The notes beneath the pieces were generated by a model, which ran no database searches, was not told the origin of the DNA, and worked only from the letters and a program-made list of their open reading frames with translations. Both the position numbers and the translations under genes were made by a program. Shown here piece by piece: positions 2,906-8,532 of a DNA stretch of 9,044 nt; the first letter of the stretch is position 1; the number at the start of each line of letters is the position of its first letter. This stretch comes from Candidatus Desantisbacteria bacterium CG1_02_38_46 (GTDB lineage Bacteria; Desantisbacteria; UBA1551; UBA1559), in NCBI GenBank assembly GCA_001871015.1, contig MNUO01000029.1, positions 1 to 9,044 on the forward strand, read 5' to 3'.

Positions 2906-5014
2906 ATGGAAGGTTGTAAAAATTTTCTTTTTAAAGATTTATTTTCTCCTGTGCAATACCTTAAGAGTGTAGGTCCAAATAGAGCAAGACTATTAAAGAG
3001 GTTGGGCATCAGCACCATCTTTGACCTCCTTACCTATTATCCATTCAGATATGAAGACCGCAGTCACTTGTATCTGATTGCTCAGATAAAAAATGGGGAT
3101 GAAAAAACGATTCAGGCAGTAGTTTCCAGGCAAATAATAGTAATGACAAGACGCGGGCCTCTTCTAAAAGTGGTGATGACAGATGGAACAGGCGAAGTGA
3201 TTGTGACCTGCTTTAACCAATTCTATTTAAAAGATGTATTTACTATCGGCAAAGCATTTATTATAAACGGTAAATTCAATAGAAAATTTAGCGCAAGTGG
3301 AAGATCTGGAAAAGCAGAAATATCCAATTTTACATATGAGATGCTGACCAAAGATGAAGATGATTTAATCCACACCAACCGCATTGTTCCAATTTATAAT
3401 ATCACAAAAAATCTAAATATGAGATTCCTGCGTACATTGGTCAAGCGAACACTTGATGAATATCTGCCGGCATTATCAGAGATTTTACCCATAAATATAA
3501 GAAAGAATCACAATCTTTGCGAAGAAGGTTTTGCAATAAAAAATATTCACTTTCCAGAAAATTTTCAGACTGCTGAAGAATCGAAAAGACGATTGGTTTT
3601 TGATGATTTTTTTGTCCTGCAGACTGTGCTCGCGCTGAACAGGTCCAGAGTCAAGGAGTCACCAGGTATAACCTATGAAGTTTCTAATCAATTTGTAGAT
3701 GAGTTTGAATCACTTCTCCCATTTACACTAACTAATGCACAGCGCAGGGTTATAAACGAAATCCTGAAGGATATGGCAATTCCAAGGCCTATGAATCGTC
3801 TTCTGCAGGGAGATGTAGGTTCTGGAAAAACTATTGTTGCTGCGGCATCAGCTTATGCTGCAATTAAAAATGGGTATCAGGCGGCGTTTATGGCTCCTAC
3901 AGAAATACTTGCAGAACAACACTTCATAAACCTTCACAATTTTTTAGCAACACTTGGAATGAAAAGCGCATTGTTAATCAGCGGCACAGCAAAGAAGGAG
4001 AGGAAGAAAATATTGCAGAACCTATCAAGCGGAGCAATTAACCTTTTGATCGGAACACATGCTCTGATTGAGGAAGACGTGAGTTTTAACAGACTCGGAT
4101 TCATCATTATTGATGAACAGCACAAGTTTGGTGTGATGCAGAGAGCAAGTCTTCGCAGTAAAGGATTAAACCCTGATGTGCTTGTGATGACAGCCACCCC
4201 GATTCCAAGAACCTTAGCGCTTACAGTTTATGGGGACCTGGATATTTCTGTAATTGATGAATTACCACCTGGCAGGAAAAGGATTGAGACGACATTGTAC
4301 ACTGAGAGGAAAAGGAATGAAGCTCAAGAATTGATTAGAAATGAACTTAGACAGGGAAGGCAGGTATATGTTGTATACCCGTTGATTGAAGAATCTGAAA
4401 AGGTGGACTTGAAGTCAGCCACAGAGGAGTTTAATCGTCTGAACAAGGTCTATCCGGAATTTAACATTGGATTGCTCCACGGAAGACTTCCATCCAAGGA
4501 AAAGGAATCTATAATGCAGGAATTCAAAAATAAGAAAATTGATATGCTTGTATCTACAACTGTAATTGAAGTTGGAATTGACATTCCAAATGCATCAATA
4601 ATGTTAATAGAACATCCGGAGAGGTTCGGACTTGCCCAGTTACATCAATTGCGCGGTCGTATTGGAAGGGGTGAATACGAATCCCTCTGTATCTTACTTG
4701 CAGGCTTAAGACTTTCAGCAGAAGCAAGGCAGAGAATTAAAGCATTTGTTCAAACTAACGATGGTTTTGAAATTGCTGAAGTTGATTTACGCCTGAGGGG
4801 TCCTGGTGAATTTATTGGAACCAGGCAACATGGGATGCCGGATTTGAAAATAGCGGATATTTTAAAAGATGTCAAAATCTTAGAGATTGCTCGTCAGGAA
4901 GCATTCAACCTGGTTAATATGGACCCACATTTATTAAGGGATGAACACCGCCAGTTAAAGGAAATGATAAAATTTTTTTACCGTGGCCGTGAAAGTTTAA
5001 TCAAAGTCGGGTAA
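2906..5014 (+). CDS. recG: ATP-dependent DNA helicase RecG
   Basis: RecG is a monomeric branch-migration helicase that reverses stalled replication forks and processes junctions and R-loops. The 702-residue product is full length for the family. The N-terminal wedge region carries YLKSVGPNRARLLKRLGI and DLLTYYPFRYEDR (18-52), followed by an OB-fold segment (about 60-145). The superfamily 2 helicase motifs are all intact: Walker A GDVGSGKT (302-309), APTEILAEQH (330-339), DEQH (403-406) followed by KFGVMQR, TATPIPRT (429-436), VIEVGIDIPN (553-562) and QLRGRIGRG (581-589). The RecG C-terminal segment (DLRLRGPGEFIGTRQHG) is present. AAGGA at 2892-2896 lies 9 nt before the ATG. The ribosome site directly follows the terminator-like hairpin, which leaves no room for a separate downstream promoter. 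Identification is secure. Confidence 0.98.
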   Translation: MEGCKNFLFKDLFSPVQYLKSVGPNRARLLKRLGISTIFDLLTYYPFRYEDRSHLYLIAQIKNGDEKTIQAVVSRQIIVMTRRGPLLKVVMTDGTGEVIVTCFNQFYLKDVFTIGKAFIINGKFNRKFSASGRSGKAEISNFTYEMLTKDEDDLIHTNRIVPIYNITKNLNMRFLRTLVKRTLDEYLPALSEILPINIRKNHNLCEEGFAIKNIHFPENFQTAEESKRRLVFDDFFVLQTVLALNRSRVKESPGITYEVSNQFVDEFESLLPFTLTNAQRRVINEILKDMAIPRPMNRLLQGDVGSGKTIVAAASAYAAIKNGYQAAFMAPTEILAEQHFINLHNFLATLGMKSALLISGTAKKERKKILQNLSSGAINLLIGTHALIEEDVSFNRLGFIIIDEQHKFGVMQRASLRSKGLNPDVLVMTATPIPRTLALTVYGDLDISVIDELPPGRKRIETTLYTERKRNEAQELIRNELRQGRQVYVVYPLIEESEKVDLKSATEEFNRLNKVYPEFNIGLLHGRLPSKEKESIMQEFKNKKIDMLVSTTVIEVGIDIPNASIMLIEHPERFGLAQLHQLRGRIGRGEYESLCILLAGLRLSAEARQRIKAFVQTNDGFEIAEVDLRLRGPGEFIGTRQHGMPDLKIADILKDVKILEIARQEAFNLVNMDPHLLRDEHRQLKEMIKFFYRGRESLIKVG

Positions 5015-5194: not shown

Positions 5195-6496
5195 ATGTTA
5201 AATCTAATAACATTCAATCGTTGGTGGGACACAGGTCAAGTAGATGAATTTTACCTGAAGCCTTACAAGAGATGTCTTTTCTATACTCTTATAGATTACC
5301 TCGAAGCCCGCCAAATTTTAACAATATATGGACTGCGAAGAACAGGAAAGACCACTCTTATTTATCAAACTATATCTCAGATATTGAAGAGTGGCACACC
5401 ACCAAAAAATATTCTGTATTTTTCTTTTGATGAAAATATTTCAAATTTGGAAGAACTTTTCAAAACCTATTCTGAATTTATCCTTTCTTCTAATTTAGCA
5501 AAACCAAAAAGGATTTATGTTTTCCTGGATGAAATTCAAAAATTAAATGACTGGCAGAATCAGATAAAAATATTTTATGACCTCTATCCAAACATTAAGT
5601 TTATAATTTCTGGCTCAGCAAGTATTCTGGTTCAAAAAGGAGCAAAAGAAAGCCTGGCAGGAAGAATTTTTGAGTTTGTTTTACCATTACTTTCATTCAG
5701 GGAATTTTTGGAATTAAAAAATGAGAAGGCGATAACAGTGCCTACCGACCTTTTTCGATTTGATGTTCTTAAGGAAATTTATCTGGCAAAAGAAAGACTT
5801 TCTTTGTATCTTCTGGATTATGCAAAGAAGGGCGGTTTTATTGAATTAATGAATGAAGTTGACGATAGGAAAATAAGAGATTATTCAAAATCAATAATAG
5901 AAAGGTGTATTTTTGTGGACCTGCCTGGAATTTATAAAATCAAGCATACACAACTTTTAAAGACAATTGTAGACCTTATCACTTCCAATCCTGGATTGCT
6001 TTTAGATTACAGTACCTTATCAGATACTTTTAACAGGGACCAGAGGGTTATTGCTGACTATATTTTTTATCTGAAGTACGTAATGCTTATTAAAACTTTT
6101 TATAATTTTGGTAAAAACCGTTTTACTTCAGAAAGAAAATTGAAAAAAGTCTATCCGGGTTCAACAAATTTTATTTTCGGAAATTATCCACAGAAATTTC
6201 AAGACCCTGAATTTTTTGGCAAGATTATTGAAAATCTTGTAGCGATAAATATAAAAGAAGAATTCTTCTGGCGTTTGAGAAATAATGAAATTGATTTTAT
6301 TCTGGAGGACGCTACACCCCTTGAAGTAAAATATAAAAATCAAGTAAGCCCAAAAGAAATTTTCCCAGTTTTGAGTTTTTGTAAAAAATACAAATCTAAC
6401 AGATCTGTTATTCTAACCAGGGATTTATTAAAACATGAACAAAAAAATGGAGTTGAAGTATTTTTTATCCCTGTCTGGATATTTTTACTGAAATGA
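5195..6496 (+). CDS. AAA+ ATPase with C-terminal DUF4143 (AAA_14 family)
   Basis: This 433-residue protein has an N-terminal AAA_14 domain: Walker A GLRRTGKTT (46-54), Walker B YVFLDEIQKL (108-117) and a sensor-like FIISGSAS (136-143) followed by the GRIFEFVLPLLSFREFL segment typical of the family (156-172). The C-terminal DUF4143 part contains an early Glu (E346 in IIENLVA), NEIDFIL (D367) and LEVKYK (E377, K379), the spacing of a PD-(D/E)XK nuclease-like fold. Members are widespread in bacteria and archaea, often in many copies, with undefined function. The gene appears to start leaderless from the promoter at 5158. It overlaps priA by ATGA, so the two are translated together. The insertion of such an accessory gene between recG and priA is unusual. 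Family call is secure; the nuclease activity is inference. Confidence 0.92.
   Translation: MLNLITFNRWWDTGQVDEFYLKPYKRCLFYTLIDYLEARQILTIYGLRRTGKTTLIYQTISQILKSGTPPKNILYFSFDENISNLEELFKTYSEFILSSNLAKPKRIYVFLDEIQKLNDWQNQIKIFYDLYPNIKFIISGSASILVQKGAKESLAGRIFEFVLPLLSFREFLELKNEKAITVPTDLFRFDVLKEIYLAKERLSLYLLDYAKKGGFIELMNEVDDRKIRDYSKSIIERCIFVDLPGIYKIKHTQLLKTIVDLITSNPGLLLDYSTLSDTFNRDQRVIADYIFYLKYVMLIKTFYNFGKNRFTSERKLKKVYPGSTNFIFGNYPQKFQDPEFFGKIIENLVAINIKEEFFWRLRNNEIDFILEDATPLEVKYKNQVSPKEIFPVLSFCKKYKSNRSVILTRDLLKHEQKNGVEVFFIPVWIFLLK
6184..6192 (+). promoter_or_regulatory. Second consensus DnaA box, within the ATPase gene
   Basis: TTATCCACA is an exact copy of the site at 5093, same orientation, but inside coding sequence (codons for Asn-Tyr-Pro-Gln), so it may be chance. 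Confidence 0.2.
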
Positions 6497-8532
6497 AGAT
6501 TGCAGAAGTTGTTTTGCCATTACCTATTGATAAATCTTTTTCCTATTCTGTGCCCGAGGGACTTGAAAAGAAAGCGCAGGTTGGAATCAGAGTCGATGTA
6601 CCATTTGGAAACAGGAATCTTGTAGGTTATATCATTTCTACGCACGACGCATCATGCCCAAGGCATATCCGCCGTGGCGGACGACGCACGACGCACGACG
6701 GTAAGAATTTCAAAGAAATTCTTGACGTCATCGATGAAGAGCCAGTGCTGAGCGAAGAAATGCTGAAGTTGAGCAGGTGGATTTCATCATATTATTTTTG
6801 TCCGCTGGGAAAGGTGTTAAAGACAGTCATACCAATAACGGGTCAACAGTCCGAAGCCCCGATGGACATCGGGGTTCGGACTCCATCGGAGACAACAGGC
6901 ATTAGTGATAGGGAGCCTGCAATAACCAGTTTTTTTATTCCAACTCCCCAGCAGAATCAAGCCCTGGAAGTTATTAAAAAATGTATTGATGAAGAAAAAT
7001 TCGGTGTGGCATTACTGCAAGGTCCACCGCGAACTGGGAAGACCGAAGTATATTTGCAGTGTGTAGCTTATGCAATAAATAAAGGAAGGCAGGCGTTAAT
7101 CTTAATCCCTGAGATTTCGCTCACATCAGTTCTTTTGAAAAGATTCAGGGATATATTTGGAAGCGAAAGGACTTGCATTTTCCACAGTGGTCTTTCCCGA
7201 AAAATTCATGATTTTGAATGGGAAAGAATTAGAAAAGGTGAAGTAGACGTTGTCATTGGAACCCGTTCTGCAATTTTTAGTCCATTGAATAAATTGGGGC
7301 TGATTATTATAGATGGAGAGGAAGATGCGAGTTTTAAGGAGGAAAGGGAACCCAGATATCATACCAGAAATGTTGCACTGAAGCGCGCAAGGTATAATAA
7401 TGCATTTGTTATATTAGAAAGCGCTGCGCCTTCGCTTGAATCCTATTATAATACTACTGTTGGAACATACCAGATTTTCAAATTTTCCACTGTTCTTAAA
7501 GGAGGTGGGGTTCCTGCAATTGAAATAATTGATAGAAGAAAAAGTAATCTAGAAAGTTCCTCCTGTATTATCAGTCCACAACTTGAAAAGGCAATTAGAA
7601 ATACGCTTGAATCCGGGGAGAGAGTTATACTTTTTCTCAATCGCAGAGGATTTGCAACTGTCCTTTTGTGTATGGAATGTGGAGGGGGATTTTATTGCCC
7701 TAACTGTCAGGTTCCACTGGTTCTCCACCATCCTCCATCAATGGTATGCCATTATTGCAATTACAGGATTTGTGCTCCAAATACCTGTCCAAATTGTGGC
7801 GGAGTCCAGTTGCGCCAGTTTGGTATCGGGACACAGCGTATTGTCGATGAAGTGAAGAAATTATTTCCAGATGCAAGAGTGGGTCGTTTCGATGCTGATA
7901 TACCAGGAAATAAAGTTTCGTCCAGGCGCATATTAGATGATTTTCGAAAAGGTAAAATCAATGTACTTGTAGGCACACAGATGATTCCAGGAGAGGAAAT
8001 TTCCGGAGTTTCACTTTTAGGTGTTATCTCTGTTGATGCAATGCTGAACCTTCCTGATTTCAGAAGTGCCGAACGTGTCTTTCAAGTCTTAACTCGAATT
8101 ATAGTACCGAAGGTCATTATTCAAACCTACAACCCGGACCATTATATATTTTCTGGATTGAGTGAGGTGGACTATCACAAATTTTATAAAAGCGAGATAA
8201 AGATGCGCCGAAATCTTAGATATCCTCCATTTACACACATTGTCCATCTGTTAGTTTATGGGAATAATGAGGGGAAATGTTCTATGGTCGCTGACAGGTT
8301 AGCTCAGACTTTAAAGAAATGCAGGGAAGAAAGCGGGTACAAATTGGACATCCTTGGACCTGCACCTGCTCCTGTGTCTAAATTGAGGGGAAAATACAGA
8401 TATCAGATATTAATTAAAGGCAAAAAGGTCATTTTAGATAAATGTCTGCACTCCATTCATAATGAGTGTGGTTATGGTTTTAGGAGAGGCGAGAGGATAA
8501 GTATTGATATTGACCCTCTTCGTATGCTATAG
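6493..8532 (+). CDS. priA: Primosomal protein N' (PriA), probably helicase-inactive
   Basis: PriA recognises abandoned forks and reloads the replisome. The 679-residue frame is intact. The 3'-DNA-binding region opens with AEVVLPLPIDKSFSYSVP (4-21) and is followed by a winged-helix region (about 74-117) and the helicase core. Walker A is GPPRTGKT (177-184) with its Lys, and LIPEISLT and VVIGTRSAIFSP are normal. The rest of the core is eroded: DEEH is DGEE (274-277), GSATPS is ESAAPS (309-314), KGHDF after GTQMI is GEEIS, and motif VI (QVAGRAGRG) is missing between FQVLTR and VIIQTYNP (530-547). Eight zinc-binding Cys (393, 396, 402, 405, 419, 422, 432, 435) keep the family spacing, and the C-terminal domain is present. 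It may therefore act as a structural loader without unwinding, as proposed for actinobacterial PriA. Two in-frame inserts lie at residues 50-70 and 119-133. The start overlaps the ATPase stop as ATGA. Confidence 0.95.
   Translation: MKIAEVVLPLPIDKSFSYSVPEGLEKKAQVGIRVDVPFGNRNLVGYIISTHDASCPRHIRRGGRRTTHDGKNFKEILDVIDEEPVLSEEMLKLSRWISSYYFCPLGKVLKTVIPITGQQSEAPMDIGVRTPSETTGISDREPAITSFFIPTPQQNQALEVIKKCIDEEKFGVALLQGPPRTGKTEVYLQCVAYAINKGRQALILIPEISLTSVLLKRFRDIFGSERTCIFHSGLSRKIHDFEWERIRKGEVDVVIGTRSAIFSPLNKLGLIIIDGEEDASFKEEREPRYHTRNVALKRARYNNAFVILESAAPSLESYYNTTVGTYQIFKFSTVLKGGGVPAIEIIDRRKSNLESSSCIISPQLEKAIRNTLESGERVILFLNRRGFATVLLCMECGGGFYCPNCQVPLVLHHPPSMVCHYCNYRICAPNTCPNCGGVQLRQFGIGTQRIVDEVKKLFPDARVGRFDADIPGNKVSSRRILDDFRKGKINVLVGTQMIPGEEISGVSLLGVISVDAMLNLPDFRSAERVFQVLTRIIVPKVIIQTYNPDHYIFSGLSEVDYHKFYKSEIKMRRNLRYPPFTHIVHLLVYGNNEGKCSMVADRLAQTLKKCREESGYKLDILGPAPAPVSKLRGKYRYQILIKGKKVILDKCLHSIHNECGYGFRRGERISIDIDPLRML
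6640..6701. repeat. In-frame heptamer/palindrome insert in priA
   Basis: ACGACGC heptamers occur at 6644-6650, 6681-6687 and 6688-6694, with ACGACGG at 6695-6701. Between them lie two palindromes, ATGCC-CAA-GGCAT (6654-6666) and TCCGCC-GT-GGCGGA (6668-6681). The stretch is GC-rich in an AT-rich gene. It encodes residues 50-70 (rich in Arg, His and Gly), which have no counterpart in typical PriA between GYIIS and the KEILDVID strand. It looks like a repeat element that inserted without breaking the frame. Confidence 0.6.
6848..6891. repeat. In-frame palindromic element in priA linker
   Basis: AGTCCGAA-G-CCCCGATG (6848-6864) pairs with CATCGGGGTTCGGACT (6867-6882) across a 2-nt centre, leaving one bulged G: a 16-bp stem. 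A smaller palindrome CTCC-ATC-GGAG (6881-6891) overlaps its end. It encodes residues 119-133, in the linker between the DNA-binding part and the helicase core, a position that tolerates extra sequence. Confidence 0.65.

Follow-up and report, generated by a model that had tools for sequence, protein, structure and literature searches.

A predicted PriA pseudohelicase with a retained P-loop in Candidatus Desantisbacteria and eroded PriA proteins in other bacterial lineages

The only PriA found in the genome of Candidatus Desantisbacteria bacterium CG1_02_38_46 has very probably turned from a helicase, as PriA is usually described, into a pseudohelicase, a platform for fork recognition and DnaB loading that would neither hydrolyze ATP nor unwind DNA. 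Its gene lies in the window, the 9,044-nucleotide stretch of DNA analyzed here, which is an entire contig of a 1.73-Mb assembly (133 contigs, 87.8% complete). Judged from its sequence, the protein is a further PriA pseudohelicase, distinguished by losses that spare the P-loop. In both genomes of this small phylum that were compared, and in a probable sister phylum, PriA lacks catalytic residues, the loss having advanced to different stages. The repeated loss across bacteria is of greater interest than the single window gene.

Identity and gene neighborhood of the window PriA

The priA open reading frame (679 amino acids) has no stop or frame break, in agreement with the intact frame claimed in the first-pass annotation. 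Its product scores 487 bits against TIGR00595, for which the curated cut-off is 230.35, and its best sequence matches in the PDB are all PriA. The domains of PriA are present, namely, a 3'-end DNA-binding domain (3'BD), two helicase lobes, a Cys-rich region with eight Cys, and a C-terminal domain. Pfam recognized PF17764, PF00270 (the first helicase lobe), PF18319, and PF18074; the second lobe was seen in the structural model and its fold matches. The features are as follows.

2906 to 5014, + strand: recG, 702 amino acids, motifs intact (GDVGSGKT, DEQH, TATP, and GRIGRG; Pfam RecG_wedge, DEAD, and Helicase_C)
6493 to 8532, + strand: priA, predicted pseudohelicase, 679 amino acids (TIGR00595; PDB sequence matches; model; best fold match, 6dcr)
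6505 to 6834, + strand: 3'-end DNA-binding domain (residues 5 to 114), kept (Pfam PF17764; E value, 7.5e-30)
6838 to 6927, + strand: disordered linker (residues 116 to 145) at the position of the winged-helix domain of Escherichia coli PriA (pLDDT, <50; fold match, 6dcr)
7021 to 7044, + strand: motif I/Walker A, GPPRTGKT, with GKT kept (alignment)
7312 to 7323, + strand: motif II, DGEE for DEEH (E275G and H277E; alignment)
7330 to 7362, + strand: aromatic-rich loop SFKEEREPRYH, kept (alignment)
7417 to 7434, + strand: motif III, ESAAPS for GSATPS (alignment)
7669 to 7803, + strand: zinc module, four CxxC with all eight Cys retained (alignment; Pfam PF18319)
7972 to 8001, + strand: motif V, GTQMIPGEEI, with the Lys deleted and KGxxF lost (alignment)
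8089 to 8112, + strand: motif VI site, QVAGRAGRG deleted, reading LTRIIVPK (alignment)
8227 to 8517, + strand: PriA C-terminal domain (residues 579 to 675), kept (Pfam PF18074; E value, 3.5e-20)

The adjoining RecG, earlier described as intact, does have its helicase motifs. DnaB and DciA were found in the window genome, in its phylum relative (see below), and in nearly all of the genomes of eroded lineages that were searched. Between recG and priA lies a gene for an AAA_14/DUF4143 ATPase (5195 to 6496), which overlaps the start of priA by ATGA and is not at the corresponding place in the relative. Upstream, a 346-amino-acid frame (1752 to 2792) without a Pfam match overlaps the end of a HAMP-domain gene (1376 to 1819) in a different frame; its real start is probably further in.

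Loss of catalytic motifs

Nearly all of the comparison PriAs from other bacterial genomes contain GSGKT, DEEH, GSATP, KGxxF, and GRxGR. In the window protein, motif I (GPPRTGKT) retains the P-loop Lys and Thr of GKT and has the canonical GVTGS altered. Motif II reads D274-G-E-E277 against DEEH, with Asp274 retained, and motif III begins at E309 and reads ESAAPS against GSATPS (G309E and T312A). Motif V is GTQMIPGEEI against GTQMxxKGxxF, and QVAGRAGRG of motif VI is absent, the local sequence being LTRII-VPKVIIQT. The zinc Cys are all present, at positions 393, 396, 402, 405, 419, 422, 432, and 435. The alignment thus reproduces exactly the states reported in the first-pass annotation (DGEE, ESAAPS, KGHDF gone, and motif VI deleted, with Walker A and the eight zinc Cys kept).

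A conservation test was based on 86 PriAs with intact motifs, in which 69 columns are conserved at 95% or more. Of these columns, 25 belong to motif I, II, III, V, or VI, and 44 lie elsewhere. The window PriA is altered at 12 of the 25 ATPase-motif columns versus 1 of the 44 others (Fisher P = 6e-6), which bears out the earlier description of an eroded core with retained noncatalytic parts; intact PriAs are altered at a maximum of 3 of the 25. An active superfamily 2 (SF2) PriA helicase has motifs II, III, V, and VI intact, and the window protein does not. It is an orthologue without catalytic residues and the sole PriA found in an 87.8% complete genome, as in a PriA pseudohelicase, and it is not of the Deinococcus-Thermus type, in which the P-loop Lys is replaced by Arg.

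Eroded PriAs in the phylum relative and in other phyla

The sole other genome of the phylum in the comparison (G001; same order, different family; 93% complete) encodes a PriA that is 49% identical to the window protein. Its gene lies directly downstream of recG, and this neighborhood is common to the two genomes. The motifs of the G001 protein read GPPRSGKT, ESEE, KSGSPS, and AAGEEL, without GRxGR, and it has eight Cys.

The first-pass annotation had named as grounds for rejecting its reading a second intact priA, sequencing errors at the eroded motifs, and intact motifs in close relatives. A second priA above the TIGR00595 cut-off was found neither in the window genome (87.8% complete) nor in G001 (93% complete), in which the sole copy is eroded, and motifs II, III, V, and VI of the G001 protein are eroded as well. 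A short, 9-kb contig from a metagenome assembly might be suspected of sequencing or assembly error. However, the losses are several, separate, and in frame, similar ones occur in an independent genome, and sequencing error is excluded because the PriA of G001 is eroded at the same motifs; the probability that the losses are artifacts is close to nil. The incompleteness of the window genome would also allow the protein to be a specialized copy, with a second, intact PriA missing from the assembly. We regard this as very unlikely, because the more complete G001 also carries the eroded copy only and in the same recG neighborhood.

In a phylum of 17 genomes (the G028 phylum), 15 PriA matches were found, and every one long enough to read is eroded. 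These PriAs have also lost the P-loop and have kept the zinc Cys. A third phylum (the G112 phylum) is half eroded, with GPRxSGKE, DGEE, and SGSP and with G[KR]AGRG kept. The PriAs of the G112 phylum (L103 and L122 to L124) are about 816 to 845 amino acids long, with the winged-helix region kept and motif VI largely intact.

These relatives bear on whether the window PriA might still be an ATPase in which E276, E277, and Arg535 replace the catalytic Glu and the arginine finger. GKT, Asp274, and the Glu that follows are retained, and Arg535 is common to the window PriA and G001. However, every catalytic motif outside the P-loop is altered together in both genomes of the phylum, G001 has Glu in place of Asp274, and the P-loop itself is missing from the related G028 phylum, all of which points to a dead site. 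We therefore consider a working ATPase improbable and favor the pseudohelicase; a weak or altered ATPase activity is conceivable because the protein retains Asp274 and the GKT of the P-loop.

Selection on eroded priA genes

Ratios of nonsynonymous to synonymous substitution (dN/dS) were calculated by NG86 for close pairs, with the saturated pair L084/L089 excluded. They were 0.17 to 0.27 in the G028 phylum, 0.10 to 0.13 in the G046 phylum, and 0.10 to 0.16 in the G112 phylum, similar in kind to those of intact PriA pairs (about 0.08 to 0.18). The eroded PriAs of the G028 phylum are under purifying selection. Between the window and G001, the two genomes of their phylum in the comparison, synonymous sites are saturated.

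Loss of the catalytic motifs might instead mark priA as a decaying pseudogene in a cell that uses another restart route, and some genomes more than 90% complete have no PriA match at all. Decay is hard to credit, because both genomes, whose PriAs are 49% identical, have an open frame, 43 of the 44 conserved non-ATPase columns are unchanged, and similarly eroded lineages are under purifying selection.

Structural model and absence of the winged-helix domain

An AlphaFold2 model of the window PriA was built from a 39-row alignment (mean pLDDT, 85.7; pTM, 0.89). According to this model, the PriA fold is retained, the best fold match being 6dcr (TM score by query, 0.79; Z score, 33.9; 612 residues; root mean square deviation [RMSD], 3.4). 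Residues 116 to 145 are disordered in the model, from which it follows that the winged-helix domain, which lies between the 3'BD and lobe 1, is absent, a feature missed by the first-pass annotation. A connection between this absence and the catalytic loss was considered and rejected, since many PriAs with intact motifs are likewise short at this region.

Comparison with known systems

The PriA of Deinococcus radiodurans has neither ATPase nor helicase activity and binds fork DNA and DnaB (PMC4504706). The window protein resembles it as an orthologue with degenerate catalytic motifs, kept DNA-binding parts, and DnaB encoded in the genome (PMC4504706). The D. radiodurans protein, however, has a poor motif I with Arg in place of the P-loop Lys, whereas the window PriA keeps GKT and has lost motifs II, III, V, and VI, the last by deletion. 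ATPase activity and the binding of forks and DnaB were measured for D. radiodurans PriA; for the window protein, these properties are predictions. D. radiodurans is the only bacterium for which we found experimental proof of a natural PriA pseudohelicase in the literature.

In E. coli, PriA K230R has no ATPase or helicase activity and retains primosome assembly and cell viability (PMC4504706), and in cells lacking RecG and RuvAB, the corresponding allele, priA300, keeps D-loops from being unwound and DNA from being lost (PMC4752480). Restart is thus supported there by a helicase-dead PriA (PMC4504706, PMC4752480), as is predicted for the window protein. K230R is an engineered single change of the P-loop in a protein with its winged helix, whereas the loss in the window PriA is natural, with the P-loop kept and the winged helix absent. 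The best fold match, 6dcr, is a winged-helix-deleted E. coli PriA with the same domain layout; there, the winged helix alone was removed by design, in contrast to a natural absence that is common in PriAs with intact motifs too.

Actinobacterial PriA is expected to be without helicase activity and in this respect is a comparable orthologue. In contrast to the window protein, with its 487 bits, the possible actinobacterial-type sequences (G127 and G262) lack all of the motifs, including the P-loop, and score 91 to 122 bits. Actinobacterial PriA has been described as smaller and very divergent (PMC1193525). The first-pass annotation had taken it as the precedent; the pseudohelicase reading stands, and the nearest precedent is instead D. 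radiodurans PriA (PMC4504706).

Proposed function

From known PriA biology, the window PriA would hold an abandoned fork or D-loop by its branch and its nascent 3' end and would present the lagging-strand template to DnaB, with DciA as a probable participant, without ATP-driven unwinding. A handover between PriA and DciA is raised as a possibility in the literature, in which we found no demonstration of it. With the catalytic Glu and the arginine finger gone, ATP hydrolysis and translocation would be impossible; the protein may bind ATP through its kept P-loop. Unwinding of the lagging-strand end, where needed, would be left to other enzymes, e.g., the neighboring RecG, a plausible candidate for a possible role as fork remodeler. 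The earlier proposal that DNA binding and loading are kept while unwinding is lost is supported, since none of the grounds for rejection that it named was encountered and the noncatalytic parts are kept; the loss of unwinding itself we infer from sequence.

The catalytic erosion in two phyla and in about 20 further families, in which the zinc module and the DNA-binding parts largely persist, is an argument that selection maintains PriA for recognizing forks and loading DnaB. A more detailed scheme, which as a whole we find possible but rather doubtful, is that the PriA of the window phylum binds and does not hydrolyze ATP, that nucleotide binding alone shapes the fork-bound platform, and that this state is an intermediate before the full loss of the nucleotide site in the probable sister phylum; repeated loss of catalysis in bacteria would then make unwinding optional in PriA-dependent restart. 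Natural variants with the P-loop kept or lost and the winged helix kept or absent could allow the contributions of ATP binding, ATP hydrolysis, and DNA binding to be told apart.

Phylogeny and spread of eroded PriAs

A survey sampled about 290 genomes from across the bacterial domain, and 30 mostly low-scoring PriAs were read individually. About 20 families beyond the lineages above have PriAs without the P-loop, motif II, and motif VI. Nearly all of these proteins (L194 to L209, L211 to L215, L072 to L074, L092, and L094) have the four CxxC pairs; a few are weak matches (90 to 130 bits) whose PriA identity rests on TIGR00595 alone. At least 7 changes, 4 of them forced by well-supported branches, are required to explain the eroded state on a tree of 131 PriAs built by a fast method, a count that is likely too low because of long-branch attraction. 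These sequences suggest that PriA helicase activity has been lost repeatedly, well beyond the published cases that we found. Eleven genomes at least 90% complete have no PriA match at an E value of ≤1e-22 (G017, G035, G077, G095, G108, G132, G182, G214, G260, G292, and G325); these genomes either have lost PriA or encode one that has diverged too far for TIGR00595 to recognize.

In a PriA tree from which the columns of the motifs and of the winged-helix region had been removed, a branch (bootstrap, 92; SH-aLRT, 79) sets the window, G001, and the G028 phylum apart from the other sequences, and a clade of the window and G028 phyla was not rejected by rpoB (P = 0.185). The G028 phylum is thus probably the sister of the window phylum in the PriA tree; at these support values, a single loss shared by the two phyla is not firmly established. 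PriA trees place the G112 phylum beside both with moderate support. One loss shared by all three phyla was rejected by rpoB (P = 0.003), and the FastTree PriA tree sets the G112 phylum apart. The shared DGEE is no proof of shared ancestry, because the PriA of an unrelated lineage, L092, also reads DGEE. The half-eroded PriA of the G112 phylum may reflect transfer or parallel loss. The DnaB tree was poorly resolved for the relations of these lineages.

Fusions of rpoB and rpoC are known in Helicobacter and Wolbachia. In the window genome, the two genes form a single open frame of 2534 amino acids in which the C terminus of RpoB runs into the N terminus of RpoC. A single frame is also found in G001 (L172), the G112 phylum (L159 to L161), G223 (L169), and G073 (L182), and the frames are separate in G028, G072, and G061, which are close relatives of G073.
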